A stretch of 63,444 nucleotides of DNA, from NCBI RefSeq assembly GCF_018219815.1, contig NZ_JADMKU010000023.1, forward strand, positions 1-63,444. The letters run 5' to 3'. The position numbers and the translations under genes are program-made. Every line of letters starts with the position of its first letter. The first letter of the stretch is position 1. The notes beneath the pieces are model-generated. The model was not told where the DNA came from and did no database searches. It was given only the letters and a program-made list of their open reading frames with translations. This stretch comes from Thalassovita aquimarina (GTDB lineage Bacteria; Pseudomonadota; Alphaproteobacteria; Rhodobacterales; Rhodobacteraceae). Positions 10,367 to 40,213 of this stretch are shown here, piece by piece.

Positions 10367-10966
10367 TCATAGTCCGCCGCTGCGCGCCTTCAGCGCCTCG
10401 GCCACCCGGTCGGCATCGTCCACCGCCAGCAGTGCGATGGGCAGCACCAGCCGCCAGCCGGGCCGTTTCACGCTGCGCGCGCGCCACGCTTCGATCAGCC
10501 GCGCGCCCTTCTGCGCCAGAACCGGGGTGAACCGGATCACCAGCGCCACCGCCAGCGCCAGCCGCCGCCGCGCCCGTTCCGACACGCCGATCCGGGCCAG
10601 CATCCGTTCAATCACCGCAAGCATGTCGTCGAGCCGCGTCGTCATCGTCACCAGATTGGCCAGCCCCACCGCCGCGATCAGCCGCAGCACCACGATCGCC
10701 CCTTCGGCCCATTCACGGATCGCAAGGTGATAGGCCAGAATGATCAGCGCCATCCAGAACACCGGCCGCATCATCCGCAATCCCTGCCGCGCGAAACGCA
10801 TCCCGCCAATGCCATAGGCCACGGCCACCGCACCGGTCACCGCCAACGCCGCCGCGACGGTATCGAGGTAAAACACCGCGAAGGTGAACAGGCACAGCGC
10901 CAACAACTTGCCCCCGGCGGGCAAGGCGTGAAACGGTGTGCGGTATTCAGAGGTCAGCGAAATCAT
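10367..10966 (-). CDS. bioN: ECF transporter T component BioN
   Basis: A 199-residue transmembrane coupling protein. It carries two Ala-Arg-Ser motifs (AWRARS and ALKARS near the C terminus), the coupling signatures by which T components bind the ATPase. The ATG at 10966 overlaps the end of bioM by 20 bases, which points to coupled translation; a longer reading frame starting inside bioM is not used. Confidence 0.93.
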   Translation of the reverse strand: MISLTSEYRTPFHALPAGGKLLALCLFTFAVFYLDTVAAALAVTGAVAVAYGIGGMRFARQGLRMMRPVFWMALIILAYHLAIREWAEGAIVVLRLIAAVGLANLVTMTTRLDDMLAVIERMLARIGVSERARRRLALAVALVIRFTPVLAQKGARLIEAWRARSVKRPGWRLVLPIALLAVDDADRVAEALKARSGGL

Positions 10967-11681
10967 CGCGCCCTCCCCTGTCGCGCATTTCCGCCTCATA
11001 GACGGGCAATACGGCATCCGGCCTGCCGTCCATGCGAATTGTGCCCTGATCCAGCCAGACCACCCGGTCATAGCCCCGGATACTGTCGAGGTCATGAGTG
11101 ATATGGACCAGCCCCGGATCCAGCGCGTCGAGGTAGCGGCTCAACCGTACGGTCGTGGCAAGGTCGAGCCCGGCAAAGGGTTCGTCGAGCACGATCAGCT
11201 TGGGCGCCATCACCAGCACCGCCATCAGGCAGACCAGGTGCCGCTGCCCTTGGCTCAGCCCGTGGATGGGCCGGTCGTACCAGTCCGGCCGGTTGAACCG
11301 GGCGAGGATGTCCAGCGCCCGTTGCCGTGCCGCGGCCTTGTCCAGCCCCTGCGAGGTCAGGCCGAATCCCAGCTCCTCGCCAACGGTGGGGAAAATGATC
11401 TGATGATCGGGATTCTGGAACAGGATGCCGACGGTCGACAGCGCCGCCTTGCGGTCGGTGGCGACCTCGACACCGCCCACCGTGATCGTGCCCGCATCCG
11501 GGGCGGCCAGCCCGGCGATGAGCCGCGCCATCTGGGTCTTGCCCGACCCGTTGCGTCCGATGATGCCGACGCGGTGGTCCGACAAGTCAAGGTTCAGCCC
11601 GGCAAAGACCTGATGCCCTTCGCGGGCATAGGACAGGTCGCGCATAATCACGCTGCATATTTCCGATGCTGGCTGCTGCAT
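10947..11681 (-). CDS. bioM: Biotin ECF transporter ATPase BioM
   Basis: A 244-residue ABC ATPase that energises biotin uptake. Walker A is GRNGSGKTQ, Walker B KLIVLDEPFAGLD, and the H-loop lies in HITHDLDSI. The signature loop LSQGQRHLV departs from the usual LSGGQ, which is common in ECF ATPases. It is the first gene of the operon. No BioR-type TTATMKATAA box was seen ahead of it. Confidence 0.93.
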   Translation of the reverse strand: MQQPASEICSVIMRDLSYAREGHQVFAGLNLDLSDHRVGIIGRNGSGKTQMARLIAGLAAPDAGTITVGGVEVATDRKAALSTVGILFQNPDHQIIFPTVGEELGFGLTSQGLDKAAARQRALDILARFNRPDWYDRPIHGLSQGQRHLVCLMAVLVMAPKLIVLDEPFAGLDLATTVRLSRYLDALDPGLVHITHDLDSIRGYDRVVWLDQGTIRMDGRPDAVLPVYEAEMRDRGGRDDFADL

Positions 11682-11783
11682 GGCGGCGCCCCGTCCGTTT
11701 CACTGGCCGAGGGGCATACAGTTAAAATCCCCCGCAAACAAGCGACGCTGCGACAGCGCGCTTCGCGGGGAAGGCCCGACGCC

Positions 11784-11812
11784 TAAACAAAAGCGCATTT
11801 TGTCCGTATGAT
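11784..11812 (+). promoter_or_regulatory. Promoter of the candidate small RNA
   Basis: TAAACA (11784-11789) and TATGAT (11807-11812) are 17 bases apart, matching the sigma-70 -35 and -10 at four and five of six positions. Transcription would begin near 11819. Confidence 0.5.
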
Positions 11813-11818
11813 TAAGAT

Positions 11819-11938
11819 ACAGATGATCGCTCCATCGAGCCCACGCTTGCCGCGGTGGTTTATCCTCCTCCCTGGCCGCGGCCGGATCGATCTCTCCCCG
11901 TACGACTGGCCGCGCGACGTTTCGCGCGGTCTTTTTTT
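11819..11938 (+). ncRNA. Candidate CcsR/cuckoo-type small RNA with anti-Shine-Dalgarno loop
   Basis: A transcript of about 120 bases with no reading frame is bounded by a sigma-70-like promoter and a strong terminator. A 7-bp stem, GCCGCGG (11849-11855) with CCGCGGC (11876-11882), holds a 20-base loop containing CCTCCTCCC (11864-11872). That motif defines the CcsR or cuckoo RNAs of alphaproteobacteria, which are stress-induced in Rhodobacter sphaeroides. Known members are often next to a DUF1127 gene and may show two such loops; here there is one full motif and no DUF1127 gene, so this would be a lone, variant member. It lies divergent from bioM and upstream of the pirin gene. Confidence 0.55.
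11909..11938 (+). terminator. Rho-independent terminator of the small RNA
   Basis: An 8-bp stem CCGCGCGA (11910-11917) and TCGCGCGG (11922-11929) with loop CGTT is followed by TC and seven Ts. No plus-strand protein gene lies upstream of it, which is the main argument for a small RNA. Confidence 0.85.
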
Positions 11939-12104
11939 GCCACCGCAATCGCGCCGCCCGTTAGGTAGACCCGAGGATTGCGGCTGCGCCGGGCGCGATG
12001 GCCGGTGTCGCGCAGTCCCTGTGCGCGGCTGCCCGATGCGATGCCGGGCGTTTCACGCTATCTTCTTTGCAGACCCGACGTATGCGCAAAACAGGAGTTC
12101 GGTC
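11939..12104. other. Leader region of the pirin gene
   Basis: There are 166 bases between the small-RNA terminator and the pirin start. AGGAG precedes the ATG. Nothing else could be recognised. Confidence 0.4.
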
Positions 12105-13079
12105 ATGAGTTGGAATCCGACACAATCCCCCGAAGGTCCGGGCGGTACCGGAGCGAACGGCATCGACACCCTGATCGTCCCGCGCGCCCGCGACATCGGC
12201 GGTTTCGAGGTGCGGCGCGCCCTGCCCGCCCCGGCCCGCCAGATGGTCGGCCCGTTTATTTTCTTCGACCAGATGGGGCCGGCGGAATTCATCACGGATG
12301 GCGGCATCGACGTGCGCCCGCATCCGCATATCGGGTTGGGGACGGTCACCTATCTCTTCCAGGGCGAATTCGAACACCGTGACAGCCTCGGCACCCACCA
12401 GATGATCCATCCCGGCGAGGTGAACTGGATGCTGGCGGGCCGCGGCGTGACCCATTCCGAACGCACCAGCGCGCAAACACGGACTTCCCGGCACAAGCTG
12501 TTCGGCATCCAGACATGGGTTGCGCTGCCGGAGGACCGCGAGGATATGGCTCCGGATTTCGAGCATCACAAGCAGGACGCCCTGCCGGTGCTGGAGGATG
12601 ACGGCAGCCATGCGCGGCTGATCCTGGGGACCGCGTGGGGCGCGCGCGCGCCCGTCACGATGCAGTCGGAAATCTTCTATGCCGACGTGACCCTTGCCCC
12701 GGGCGGCCAGCTGCCCTTGCCTGACGATCACGAAGACCGCGGCCTCTATATCACCGAAGGATCGGTCGAAATCGCCGGGGAACGCTTCGAAGCCGGGCGC
12801 ATGATGGTGTTCCGCCCCGGCGACCGGATCAGCGTCAAGGCGGGGCCGCAGGGCGCCCGGCTGATGGCCCTGGGCGGTGAAACACTGAACGGCCCGCGCT
12901 ACATCTGGTGGAATTTCGTGTCTTCGTCACCCGAACGGATCGAAGCGGCCAAGGCGGCGTGGAAGGCGGCGGACTGGGAAACGGGGCCGTTTCGGCTGCC
13001 GCCGGGCGACAGCGACGAATTCATTCCGATCACCAAGGAAATGGACCGGATGAAGATCAAGAAACGGCCGCGCCCCTAG
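12105..13079 (+). CDS. Pirin family protein
   Basis: A 324-residue bicupin protein. The N-terminal cupin shows the metal-binding pattern of pirins: HPHIGL for the first two histidines and THSER for the later His and Glu. Bacterial pirins act as metal-dependent dioxygenases (quercetinase) or as regulators of central metabolism. The start at 12105 follows AGGAG; the open frame extends upstream through the small RNA, but those residues have no cupin character. The C terminus is basic (MKIKKRPRP). Confidence 0.9.
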   Translation: MSWNPTQSPEGPGGTGANGIDTLIVPRARDIGGFEVRRALPAPARQMVGPFIFFDQMGPAEFITDGGIDVRPHPHIGLGTVTYLFQGEFEHRDSLGTHQMIHPGEVNWMLAGRGVTHSERTSAQTRTSRHKLFGIQTWVALPEDREDMAPDFEHHKQDALPVLEDDGSHARLILGTAWGARAPVTMQSEIFYADVTLAPGGQLPLPDDHEDRGLYITEGSVEIAGERFEAGRMMVFRPGDRISVKAGPQGARLMALGGETLNGPRYIWWNFVSSSPERIEAAKAAWKAADWETGPFRLPPGDSDEFIPITKEMDRMKIKKRPRP

Positions 13080-37193: not shown

Positions 37194-38044
37194 TATTGCC
37201 CCTCCTGTTCGATACGGCGGCGCAGCGCGGCGATGTCTTCGATCGCGCGCAGCACATAGGGCGTGCCGCACAGCCAGTCGTGATCGGCGATCCGGGTTCC
37301 CGGCAGGGTGTGGCGCAGGGTTTCGACCACCGGGTGGTCGAGAATTTCCTCGGACCGGGACGCCCCGGGATAGGGGGTACCGGTGACCAGCGCCTCGGGC
37401 GCGGCCAACGCCAATACCTCCAGCGGCATCACGCCGCCCGAACTCAGACCGGCTTCGGACGCGACATTCGCCAATCCGGCGGCCAGCAGGATTTGCCCAG
37501 ACAGGGTGCGGTCGCCGGTGGTATAGCCGTTGGCGTGGTAAATCGCGGTGCGTGGGCGGCGAGTGACCTCGGCCTGCAGGTCGGCCAGCCGGGTATCGAA
37601 ATCGCGCAGCATCGCGGCGGCCCGTTCCTGTTGCCGCAGCGCCGCCCCCATTTCGGTGATCCGGGCGCGCACATCGTCGAGCGAATAGGCCGGATCGAAT
37701 ACCGCAACGGGAATGCCCAGCCGTTTCAGCATCGATACCGTGGCCCGGTCCGAATAGCGCCCGGCAAGCACCAGACCGGGGTCGAGCAGATAAATCTCTT
37801 CCGCCAATTCATGGTTCTTGTGGTAGCCCCTGGCGTCTTCCGCCATTGCCGAACTGCGCGGATCATAGGCCAGATGCGAAACGGAAAGAAGCTGGCCGTC
37901 CCCGGCCAGCATCATCGCAAGCTGATCCGTGCACAGGTTCAAAGACACGACACGGGCGGGCCGGGCCGGGTCTTCGCCCGCCACGGCCATGGCCCCCGCC
38001 AGCAAAAGGGCGGGGACAAGGGATATCAGCCTAGAACTCCGCAC
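37193..38044 (-). CDS. btuF: Periplasmic cobalamin-binding protein BtuF
   Basis: A 283-residue helical-backbone binding protein. A GTG at 38044 gives a clean signal peptide (LISLVPALLLAGAMAVA) and overlaps the end of btuB by 14 bases; the only upstream ATG, at 38122, would add 26 residues overlapping btuB and is rejected. The mature protein starts with ARVVSLNLCTDQLAMMLAG, typical of the family, and a middle segment DDVRARITEMGAAL precedes the linking helix. Confidence 0.85.
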   Translation of the reverse strand: MRSSRLISLVPALLLAGAMAVAGEDPARPARVVSLNLCTDQLAMMLAGDGQLLSVSHLAYDPRSSAMAEDARGYHKNHELAEEIYLLDPGLVLAGRYSDRATVSMLKRLGIPVAVFDPAYSLDDVRARITEMGAALRQQERAAAMLRDFDTRLADLQAEVTRRPRTAIYHANGYTTGDRTLSGQILLAAGLANVASEAGLSSGGVMPLEVLALAAPEALVTGTPYPGASRSEEILDHPVVETLRHTLPGTRIADHDWLCGTPYVLRAIEDIAALRRRIEQEGQ

Positions 38045-39848
38045 GAAGCCCGAATGCGAAGCTGCGGCCCGGCATGTTGTAACCGCCCGCGGTTTCGTAG
38101 TCTTCGTCGAGCGCGTTTTCAATCCGCAGATAGGCCTTGGCGGTATCGGTCACGTCATAGCTGGCCGACAGGTTCACCAGCGTGTAATCGCCCACCTTGT
38201 GACCTGCGGGCGCATAGGGGCTTGGCACGATGTCGGCGGTGCGCTGCAACTCGAGGCTGCCCGAAGCGCGGTTCCCGATTGCGGCTTCGACGCCCAGCAC
38301 CAGATCATGGCGCGGCACCCGAGTCAGCCGCTCGCCGCTGTTGCGTGCGTCGGTGTAGGTGTAGTTGCCGTAAACCGAAACGCGGTCATTCAGGTCGTAT
38401 TGACCGGCCAGCTCCACGCCCTTGCTGACCGTGGTGCCCGGCACTTGGGCATAGCAGCCCCAGCCGCTGCTGCAAGCGGTGGAGGTGCCGTCGAATTCGA
38501 TCAGGTCATCGACCTCGGTGTAGAAGGCGGTGACCTTGAGCATCCCCATTCCGCCGAAATCGTGTTCGACGCCCAGCTCGGCATTGCGACTTTGTTCCGG
38601 CTGCAGGGCCGAATTGCCGTAGGGGCTGAAAAGTTCGTAAAGCGACGGCGCGCGGAACCCGGTGCCGATGACGGCGCGCAGGGTGGTGGCGTCGGTCACC
38701 CGCCAGACCCCGGCTACACGCCCCCCGAAATTGTCGCCGAAGATGGAATGATCATCGTAGCGGGCGGTCAGCGACAGGTCGACGTTCCCCGCCGGGGCCA
38801 GCTGCAGTTCGGCGAAGGCCGAATTGGTGTCATATGCACCGCTATCGGTATCGGTGGCGAAGCTTTCCTCGGTCCGGTCGAGGCCGAAATTCAACGTCGC
38901 GCCATTGTTCAGGTCGGCATTGGCCAGATAGGAGAACTGTTTCCGGTCTCCGTCGAACATCGTCGTCCAGCCGCCCGGGTCACGCCGTTCGGAGGTGAAT
39001 TTGGAAAAGCTCAGCGTGTGTTTGACAGCGCCGGTCGCCAGTTCGGCAAAGACGCGCGCGCCCGTCTGATCGGTAAAGTTTTCACCGCTGTTGTCGGTGG
39101 GAGAGCGGTCGATTTCGGCCTCGGCGTCGCGCCACAGGGCCGAGCCGCCGAGGGTCAGAACGTCGCTGACCTCGTGCCGTGCCGACAGGGTCAGCATGTG
39201 CTGTTCGAACCCGTCCTTTTCACTGTCGCCGGACCGCGCCGAAATACCTTCGGAGGTGACGGCGGAATAGGTCAGGGCAACCTCGCCCCGGTCGGATTTC
39301 TGCGCCAGGCTCAGGCTGCCGGTATAGGTGCCGAAGCTGCCCGCTTCCAGCGCGGTGCTGCCCGAAAAGCCCAGTTCCTGCGCGCGCGGAGTGGTGATAT
39401 CGATCACGCCGCCGATCGCTTCGGACCCGTAAAGCGCCGATTGCGACCCTTTCAGAACCTCGATCCGGCCCAACGCCCCGGTGGTGAAGCCGCCGAAATC
39501 GAAACTGGTCTGGGTGCCGGACGGGTCGGTCACGTCGATCCCGTCGATCCGCACCCCGATATAGCTGTTGTTGAAGCCCCGGATGCGTAGATTGGTGGTG
39601 CTGCCAAGACCGCCATTGGCCGACAGGCTGACCCCCGGCACCCGGGTCAGCGCCCGGGCCAGCGAACTCGATTTATCAAGGTCTTCGGCGTCCACGACAT
39701 CGACGCTGGCGCCACTACGCGACAGCGGCAATGGTGTCAGGTTGCCCGATACGGTGATTTCACCGAGATCATAGGTATCTTCGGACAGGGCCGGGGTGGA
39801 TAGAAGCGCGAAACCGGCCACCGAGGCCAAAAGCATAGAGCGGGTCAT
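38031..39848 (-). CDS. btuB: TonB-dependent outer-membrane cobalamin receptor BtuB
   Basis: A 605-residue receptor. A signal peptide (cleavage near STPALS) precedes the TonB box region (DLGEITVSGN), a plug domain (residues about 35-150, with LRIRGFNNSYIGVRIDGID and VLKGSQSALYGSEAIGGVID) and a 22-strand barrel ending in Phe (RSFAFGLRAEF). GAGGGA lies before the start. It is the first gene of the operon under the cobalamin riboswitch. Confidence 0.95.
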   Translation of the reverse strand: MTRSMLLASVAGFALLSTPALSEDTYDLGEITVSGNLTPLPLSRSGASVDVVDAEDLDKSSSLARALTRVPGVSLSANGGLGSTTNLRIRGFNNSYIGVRIDGIDVTDPSGTQTSFDFGGFTTGALGRIEVLKGSQSALYGSEAIGGVIDITTPRAQELGFSGSTALEAGSFGTYTGSLSLAQKSDRGEVALTYSAVTSEGISARSGDSEKDGFEQHMLTLSARHEVSDVLTLGGSALWRDAEAEIDRSPTDNSGENFTDQTGARVFAELATGAVKHTLSFSKFTSERRDPGGWTTMFDGDRKQFSYLANADLNNGATLNFGLDRTEESFATDTDSGAYDTNSAFAELQLAPAGNVDLSLTARYDDHSIFGDNFGGRVAGVWRVTDATTLRAVIGTGFRAPSLYELFSPYGNSALQPEQSRNAELGVEHDFGGMGMLKVTAFYTEVDDLIEFDGTSTACSSGWGCYAQVPGTTVSKGVELAGQYDLNDRVSVYGNYTYTDARNSGERLTRVPRHDLVLGVEAAIGNRASGSLELQRTADIVPSPYAPAGHKVGDYTLVNLSASYDVTDTAKAYLRIENALDEDYETAGGYNMPGRSFAFGLRAEF

Positions 39849-39989
39849 TTCAAGTCCCTCATGGACGGCCCTGCGGGCCGGTCGTTCTTGTCATGTCCTT
39901 GGGGGAACGCTTGTCCTCCGCAGACGGTGGACACCACGACGGAAGGATTCCGCAGCCCATGACGCCCCTCGCGCACGGACAGGGTGTTG
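39849..39989 (-). promoter_or_regulatory. Leader between riboswitch and btuB (expression platform)
   Basis: These 141 bases hold a hairpin CGGCCC-gca-GGGCCG near the btuB ribosome site and no T-run that would signal a terminator, so control is probably at translation start. Confidence 0.5.
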
Positions 39990-40178
39990 GCTTCGGCAGG
40001 TCTCCTGACTTGCGGGTCTCGGTTCAGCCGGGCCTTCCCGCCGTGTTTTGCACAGCAGTGGCATTTGCCGGCTTCACTCGCCGCTCACAGTTGCGGGGGC
40101 AGTCGCGGAATTGGCGCCTGTTGGCTACACCTCACCACGTTCCCTATTATCCGGGCGACTCATTGCCCAGACCGAAGC
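39990..40178 (-). promoter_or_regulatory. Cobalamin riboswitch
   Basis: All core elements are present in order on the minus strand. P1 is GCTTCGG (40178-40172) with CCGAAGC (39996-39990). Inside are GGGAACGTGGTGAGG, CTGCCCCCGCAACTGT, the B12-responsive GCCACTG, CGGGAAGG and the B12 box AAGTCAGGAGACCTGCC. When adenosylcobalamin is plentiful it should reduce expression of the whole btuB-tonB operon. Confidence 0.96.
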
Positions 40179-40184
40179 GGGGTC

Positions 40185-40213
40185 CAATTAATCATGGCCA
40201 GCGACGTTGTAAA
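40185..40213 (-). promoter_or_regulatory. Possible promoter of the corrinoid operon
   Basis: On the minus strand TTTACA (40213-40208) and TAATTG (40190-40185) are 17 bases apart. Transcription would begin near 40178, exactly at P1 of the riboswitch. The -10 match is poor. Confidence 0.4.

Follow-up and report, generated by a model that had tools for sequence, protein, structure and literature searches.

What kind of RNA gene, if any, lies between bioM and a pirin gene of Thalassovita aquimarina? In the window (by which we mean the whole stretch of 63,444 nucleotides analysed), this intergenic region carries a terminator together with a hairpin that presents an anti-Shine-Dalgarno motif, and an earlier note, made from the sequence alone, had read it as a lone small RNA of the CcsR/cuckoo type beside biotin uptake genes. 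The question thus has several parts: whether the element is a discrete gene, to which group of RNAs it belongs, and what it might pair with. We refer to the small RNA gene as the window RNA (Table 1); the family means the one to which GTDB assigns the window's genome. NCBI places Thalassovita in Roseobacteraceae, and we use the name Rhodobacteraceae broadly.

A terminated RNA conserved in Thalassovita gelatinovora

The basic architecture described in the earlier note holds up. Both the terminator, with its seven Ts, and the 8-bp hairpin that displays the anti-Shine-Dalgarno motif are recovered by folding, and no credible plus-strand protein gene ends upstream: bioM is on the minus strand, and the open reading frame at 10938-11786 (+) is bioM antisense. 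Pfam bears out the identities of the pirin, BioY and ABC ATPase genes in the vicinity. The predicted fold of the window RNA has an energy of -48.8 kcal/mol, matched by 4 of 200 shuffles (z -2.3), and its parts follow one another in the order loop hairpin with CCUCCUCCC, a mostly unpaired CUCCCCGUAC, GACUGGCC and terminator. In silico, the motif in the loop is unpaired with a probability of 0.57-0.99. A second C-rich segment at 11894-11911, which the earlier note overlooked, is likewise largely accessible, with unpaired probabilities of 0.72-1.0 at 11896-11907, while the free RNA has base pairs at 11894-11895 and 11908-11911.

Table 1. Positions of the window RNA, its parts and neighbours, and of the related RNAs A and B
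Feature	Position	Strand	Description and basis
Small RNA gene (window RNA)	11819-11938	+	About 110-120 nt; conservation with T. gelatinovora, fold against shuffles
Putative promoter region	11784-11818	+	Sigma-70-like TAAACA-17-TATGAT at 11784-11812; alternative -10 TAAGAT at 11813-11818; pattern scan
Outer stem	~11825-11895	+	GATCG.TCC with GGA.CGATC, encloses the motif hairpin; predicted fold
Motif hairpin	11849-11882	+	8-bp stem, 11849-11856 with 11875-11882; loop ~11857-11874; centroid fold
Anti-Shine-Dalgarno motif CCTCCTCCC	11864-11872	+	In the hairpin loop; predicted fold
B-complementary segment CTCCCCGTACGACTGGCC	11894-11911	+	Complementary to leader RNA B at 16/18 positions; common to A-type and SorX RNAs
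Intrinsic terminator	11908-11938	+	10-bp stem 11908-11931, seven T 11932-11938; terminator scan, fold
bioM	10947-11681	-	Gene upstream of the window RNA, opposite strand
Pirin gene	12105-13079	+	Downstream of the window RNA; Pfam
A-type RNA (examples)	L003:1455-1545; L004:1455-1545; L074:1018-1106		herA-ialB loci
Leader RNA B	L035:2511-2590 (G000:C11)		Upstream of ialB; hairpin GTCGGCNNGTCCGAC, RGGGAG, terminator

Comparison with relatives shows how narrowly the RNA is distributed and how well it is kept. A pattern of the loop plus the second C-rich segment was run against one genome per species (84,980 species, a collection that may omit the window's own or a near-identical record), yielding three matching stretches; the sole alphaproteobacterial one is in Thalassovita gelatinovora CECT 4357, and the two others, both non-alphaproteobacterial, were taken as chance. 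Among nine genomes of the genus, the RNA was found in the window's genome and T. gelatinovora only (E 5.7e-29). The two copies are identical at 98 of 119 positions (82.4%) over 11819-11937, with a blastn block spanning 11800-11948, whereas the 150-bp flanks reach only 42.7% and 41.3%. On account of this difference we regard the window RNA as a discrete element; the earlier reading of a small RNA that stands alone and carries its terminator is supported. The loop TCCTCCTCCCTGG is identical in T. gelatinovora, as is the segment GATCTCTCCCCGTAC..CGACTGGCCGCGCG save for a 2-nt insertion there; the terminator stem is preserved, as is the outer stem with two one-sided changes (C-G to U-G and G-C to G-U). 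The counterpart's fold has a z of -3.2, with 0 of 200 shuffles as good. As just two sequences are available, the stems have no covariation proof: of 26 pairs compared between them, none changed on both sides.

The promoter fares less well. The sigma-70-like promoter of the earlier note matches at 9 of 12 positions (a scan of 2 kb returned three sites of this quality, against a shuffle mean of 0.4), and its first hexamer, TAAACA, is preserved in T. gelatinovora; the second, TATGAT, reads TTGTTT there by eye, with 25 of 37 positions matching over 11782-11818. Because this second hexamer has changed, the start site of the window RNA is unsure.

The neighbouring genes also differ. In T. gelatinovora the counterpart is flanked by a tRNA-Gly gene and, next downstream, a convergent AraC-type gene. 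The latter is common to both species, but bioYNM and pirin are absent from the T. gelatinovora interval, which makes the proximity to biotin uptake genes incidental; the link drawn in the earlier note falls away. A third genome of the genus (G006) also carries the AraC-type gene, and no such RNA was seen next to it. The same comparison decides on a reading in which the element is not a free small RNA but a 5' leader or attenuator of the pirin gene, whose start codon lies on the same strand 167 bases beyond the end of the T run. Since T. gelatinovora preserves the RNA without a downstream pirin gene, we reject this reading as highly improbable; the drop in downstream identity to 41% also speaks against it.

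Affinity with A-type and SorX RNAs

Display of CCUCCUCCC in a hairpin loop is a trait that the window RNA shares with CcsR1-4/cuckoo (RF02791) and with NfeR1/alpha-r14 (RF02344). CcsR/cuckoo RNAs are induced by RpoHI/RpoHII under stress. Many of them are associated with a short DUF1127 gene (the CIN1 locus), as a passage of PMC10253847 describes. The window RNA has no adjoining DUF1127 gene and folds with a single CCUCCUCCC hairpin, as had been correctly observed, but its assignment to CcsR/cuckoo did not withstand the Rfam search that the earlier note proposed: within 11600-12200, the CcsR1 covariance model matched nothing at E<=10. In a positive control it scored 35.5-40.5 bits (E 2.8e-5 to 8.8e-7, sub-gathering) on four stretches of the genuine CcsR cluster of the window's genome (G000). 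Since CcsR1 is silent at the window RNA yet detects this cluster, CcsR membership is not supported. In the cluster, at about 122,600-122,960 of G000:C2 (L092:1260-1860) and some 5 kb from mraZ, eight CCTCC hairpins (a count by eye) come after a DUF1127 gene (Pfam E 1.5e-12).

One could still suppose a diverged CcsR/cuckoo or alpha-r14 RNA, in which one hairpin unit escaped a DUF1127-linked cluster and CCUCCUCCC alone acts. The motif CCTCCTCCCT occurs nine times in the 4.33 Mb of the window's genome, six of these in the CcsR locus (the reversed pattern occurs eight times); of the three copies beyond the cluster two are in coding sequence by eye, and the third is in the hairpin loop of the window RNA. 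The motif alone is thus at chance level, and rises above it because of its conservation in T. gelatinovora. A weak alpha-r14 match does extend to the terminator, at 16.3 bits against a gathering threshold of 58.8; alpha-r14/NfeR1 has three hairpins, each with CCUCCUCCC (described in part of PMC10746234), in contrast to the one of the window RNA. With CcsR1 silent, no DUF1127 gene, one motif hairpin and a 3' half of another type, we consider such an origin improbable.

That 3' half fits a different group. In Rfam, the window RNA matches SorX best (RF02784; 26.3 bits, E 0.00038, gathering 46.6); genuine SorX copies elsewhere in the window's genome score 77.6 and 54.4 bits. In Rhodobacter sphaeroides, SorX is a 3'-UTR-derived small RNA cut from the ompR-1 mRNA, according to a section of PMC8625941. 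The window RNA shares with it the 3' module CUCCC-GU-(n)-GAC-UGG and a GC-rich terminator; unlike SorX it is stand-alone, with no credible plus-strand gene upstream, and it has CCTCCTCCC, which the SorX copies of its own genome do not. A further SorX-like candidate, with TTACCTCCCTGTTGAAC and a terminator, lies at G000:C1:70954-71039 (L088:1493-1586; 21.1 bits to SorX, sub-gathering).

A closer match emerged when 394 family genomes were searched with the window RNA: of the 20 non-self matches at E<=0.001, 12 neighbour a herA-like ATPase gene and/or ialB (identified by Pfam IalB). The small RNA between herA and ialB, here called the A-type RNA or A, has a hairpin followed by CUUCCUCCCUGUC, GACUGGCC and a GC-rich terminator, and its Rfam matches are sub-gathering only. 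A recurrent promoter-like block, ATACA-N3-TTAACC-N6-TGCCAGT, is visible by eye at A and was not seen ahead of the window RNA. We built a covariance model, R1, from 28 A copies, excluding the window RNA and its T. gelatinovora counterpart and omitting an eroded T. gelatinovora A copy and one near-duplicate; its E-value calibration is rough. On the window's genome the top match of R1 is the window RNA, at 43.8 bits (E 5.7e-9), the best terminator-only match reaching 25.2 bits. On T. gelatinovora the counterpart is fourth (33.3 bits, E 4.1e-6), below three other group members. In the genus genomes R1 also matches SorX-type and other RNAs with CCTCCCTGTYRGACT, making the A/SorX-like RNAs a multi-copy group.

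All A-type features tested (hairpin, C-rich single strand, GACTGGCC and GC-rich terminator) are present in the window RNA, and they come in the order seen in A, with the C-rich stretch unpaired and GACUGGCC before the terminator. The two differ in location, the window RNA being on a different contig without adjoining herA or ialB, and in three further respects: CCUCCUCCC in the loop, CUCUCCCC replacing CUUCCUCCCU, and an extra outer stem. Two other R1 relatives, L121 and L118 (G008:C28 and G001:C1), start by eye just past an apparent CDS end and are perhaps 3'-UTR-derived members of the CCTCCC group.

Leader RNA B and its predicted pairing

Just downstream of A, and ahead of ialB, is a second short RNA, the leader RNA B. 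The 80 loci sampled, one per genus, were drawn from 158 B-positive genomes; A is upstream of B in 67 of them, and about five of the 13 counted as lacking A still carry an eroded A by eye. B is headed by a promoter-like TTGAC and then a TAGCGT-like hexamer in 71 of the 80 loci, and its terminator hairpin was seen in both loci folded. The comparison has brought to light a putative partner that is highly conserved: an exact match to the pattern GTCGGCNNGTCCGACRGGGAG is present in 158 of 295 genomes, once per genome among the matches listed, where the reversed control has 0 matches. As B has no Rfam match (E-value limits 0.5 and 0.1), it is a candidate new RNA family. An open-access literature search, of which papers on StsR, SorX, CcsR and cuckoo formed no part, turned up no published account naming A or B, and no B-centred two-RNA circuit is named in the literature found.

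The second C-rich segment of the window RNA is predicted to pair with B over 8+8 bp, with CTCCCCGT and GACTGG on the B-pairing side. The energy for 11891-11911 with B is -34.7 kcal/mol, a value not reached in any of 5000 shuffles, whichever side was shuffled, and B is the best non-self site for this segment among 53,814 sites sampled in 16 genome stretches. A short A segment gives -35.2 kcal/mol with B (0 of 5000 shuffles), and two SorX-type RNAs of the window's genome give -32.5 (again 0 of 5000) and -28.7 kcal/mol; as these are also predicted to pair with B, the window RNA need not replace A. GTCYRACRGGGAG is present three times in the window's genome, once in B and twice as the antisense of SorX-type RNAs. 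Complementarity to B is 17 or 18 of 18 positions in 42 of 55 A copies, compared with 16 in the window RNA, where six of the 18 bases are already base-paired in the unbound molecule; much of B's side is inside a hairpin. These values come from short segments, used instead of long-duplex energies, which ignore internal folding and are hence uninformative: per test, 2 to 76 of 1000 shuffles attain the long-duplex energy (none in the case of one A copy), and a decayed A still scores -44.6 kcal/mol.

Do A and B evolve together? For the 55 of 67 A copies that fit one register, pairing with the own partner averages 16.82 of 18 against 16.81 for shuffled partners, a value reached in 716 of 2000 shuffles, so there is no co-variation. 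The pairing is near-invariant, and is therefore allowed but not proven. This result, and the predicted ability of SorX-type RNAs to pair with B as well, would suit a real small RNA that acts through anti-Shine-Dalgarno pairing with mRNAs alone, its match to B being a passive leftover of A ancestry. Such a reading leaves unexplained that the complement to B survives in both species despite a changed middle (the 2-nt insertion in T. gelatinovora), and that a U facing a G of B was replaced by C, which pairs more strongly; we judge it unlikely, though slightly less so than descent from CcsR or alpha-r14.

A precedent for a small RNA with a leader partner exists in R. sphaeroides, where StsR pairs with UpsM, a small RNA arising from termination within an mRNA leader (treated in parts of PMC8625941 and PMC8307010). 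The window RNA and B would be a functional analogue of this pair, the difference being that B precedes ialB and UpsM precedes mraZ. We also considered whether the A loci are StsR beside UpsM/mraZ, and rejected that placement: the downstream gene is ialB, and the mraZ leader of the window's genome is missing the B element. A itself may yet prove to be StsR. With that leader the window RNA reaches -19.1 kcal/mol, well short of its value with B.

Origin and proposed function

In seven of the nine genus genomes an intact A at herA-ialB is the best R1 match (six of these seven copies are in R1). In T. gelatinovora the A at this site is eroded, with GACTGGCC lost (29.9 bits), and in the window's genome none of the 13 R1 matches at E<=0.1 is at the native herA-ialB site. 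The carriers of the window RNA are thus exactly the two genus genomes without intact A. HerA of the window's genome is 93% identical to that of T. gelatinovora and 84-90% to those of the other seven. The simplest reading of these sequences is that an A-type RNA was moved or copied in a common ancestor and gained the CCUCCUCCC loop, and that the native copy decayed. Even so, the disappearance of A and the arrival of the window RNA amount to one correlated event shared by sister species, and may coincide by chance. Presence in two of nine genomes and a poorly conserved promoter might also suggest a silent remnant of an A-type RNA, but the degree of identity, both motifs, both stems and an intact terminator, set within flanks at background identity, make this very hard to credit.

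Taken together, these observations lead us to favour, with some confidence, a small RNA of about 115 nt that stands alone and acts in trans: an A-type/SorX-like member, relocated and altered, which combines an anti-Shine-Dalgarno loop with predicted pairing to B. An apparent orphan CcsR RNA is thereby re-filed as a relocated branch of another group of small RNAs. By analogy, the window RNA probably blocks ribosome-binding sites: its loop and C-rich stretch would base-pair with such sites, rich in purines, on several mRNAs and so prevent translation, as does NfeR1 of Sinorhizobium, for which anti-Shine-Dalgarno silencing is described in part of PMC10746234. Its 3' segment would pair with B, and from this pairing we propose B as a sponge or decoy, or as a regulated target. 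On the model of StsR-UpsM, B may act as a sponge that titrates the window RNA and its siblings, or may itself be the target; with the A copy beside B decayed in this lineage, the window RNA would be the one to retain the A-type match.

A broader version of this proposal, to which we give somewhat less than even weight, is a family-wide circuit in which single-copy B serves as a dedicated sponge or hub for the multi-copy CCUCCC small RNAs, which include A and SorX. Here the window RNA would be a lineage-specific member that has changed site, acquired a CcsR-like loop and stepped in for A as the latter decayed. Should B be a sponge, several known stress small RNAs of phototrophic and marine alphaproteobacteria, SorX included, would come under one control point, and such shared control, if true, is directly testable in R. 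sphaeroides and relatives.

Elsewhere in the window, a cobalamin riboswitch (39978-40191, minus strand; Rfam, 129.3 bits) precedes an open reading frame at 38031-39848 (-) that by eye resembles a TonB-dependent receptor.
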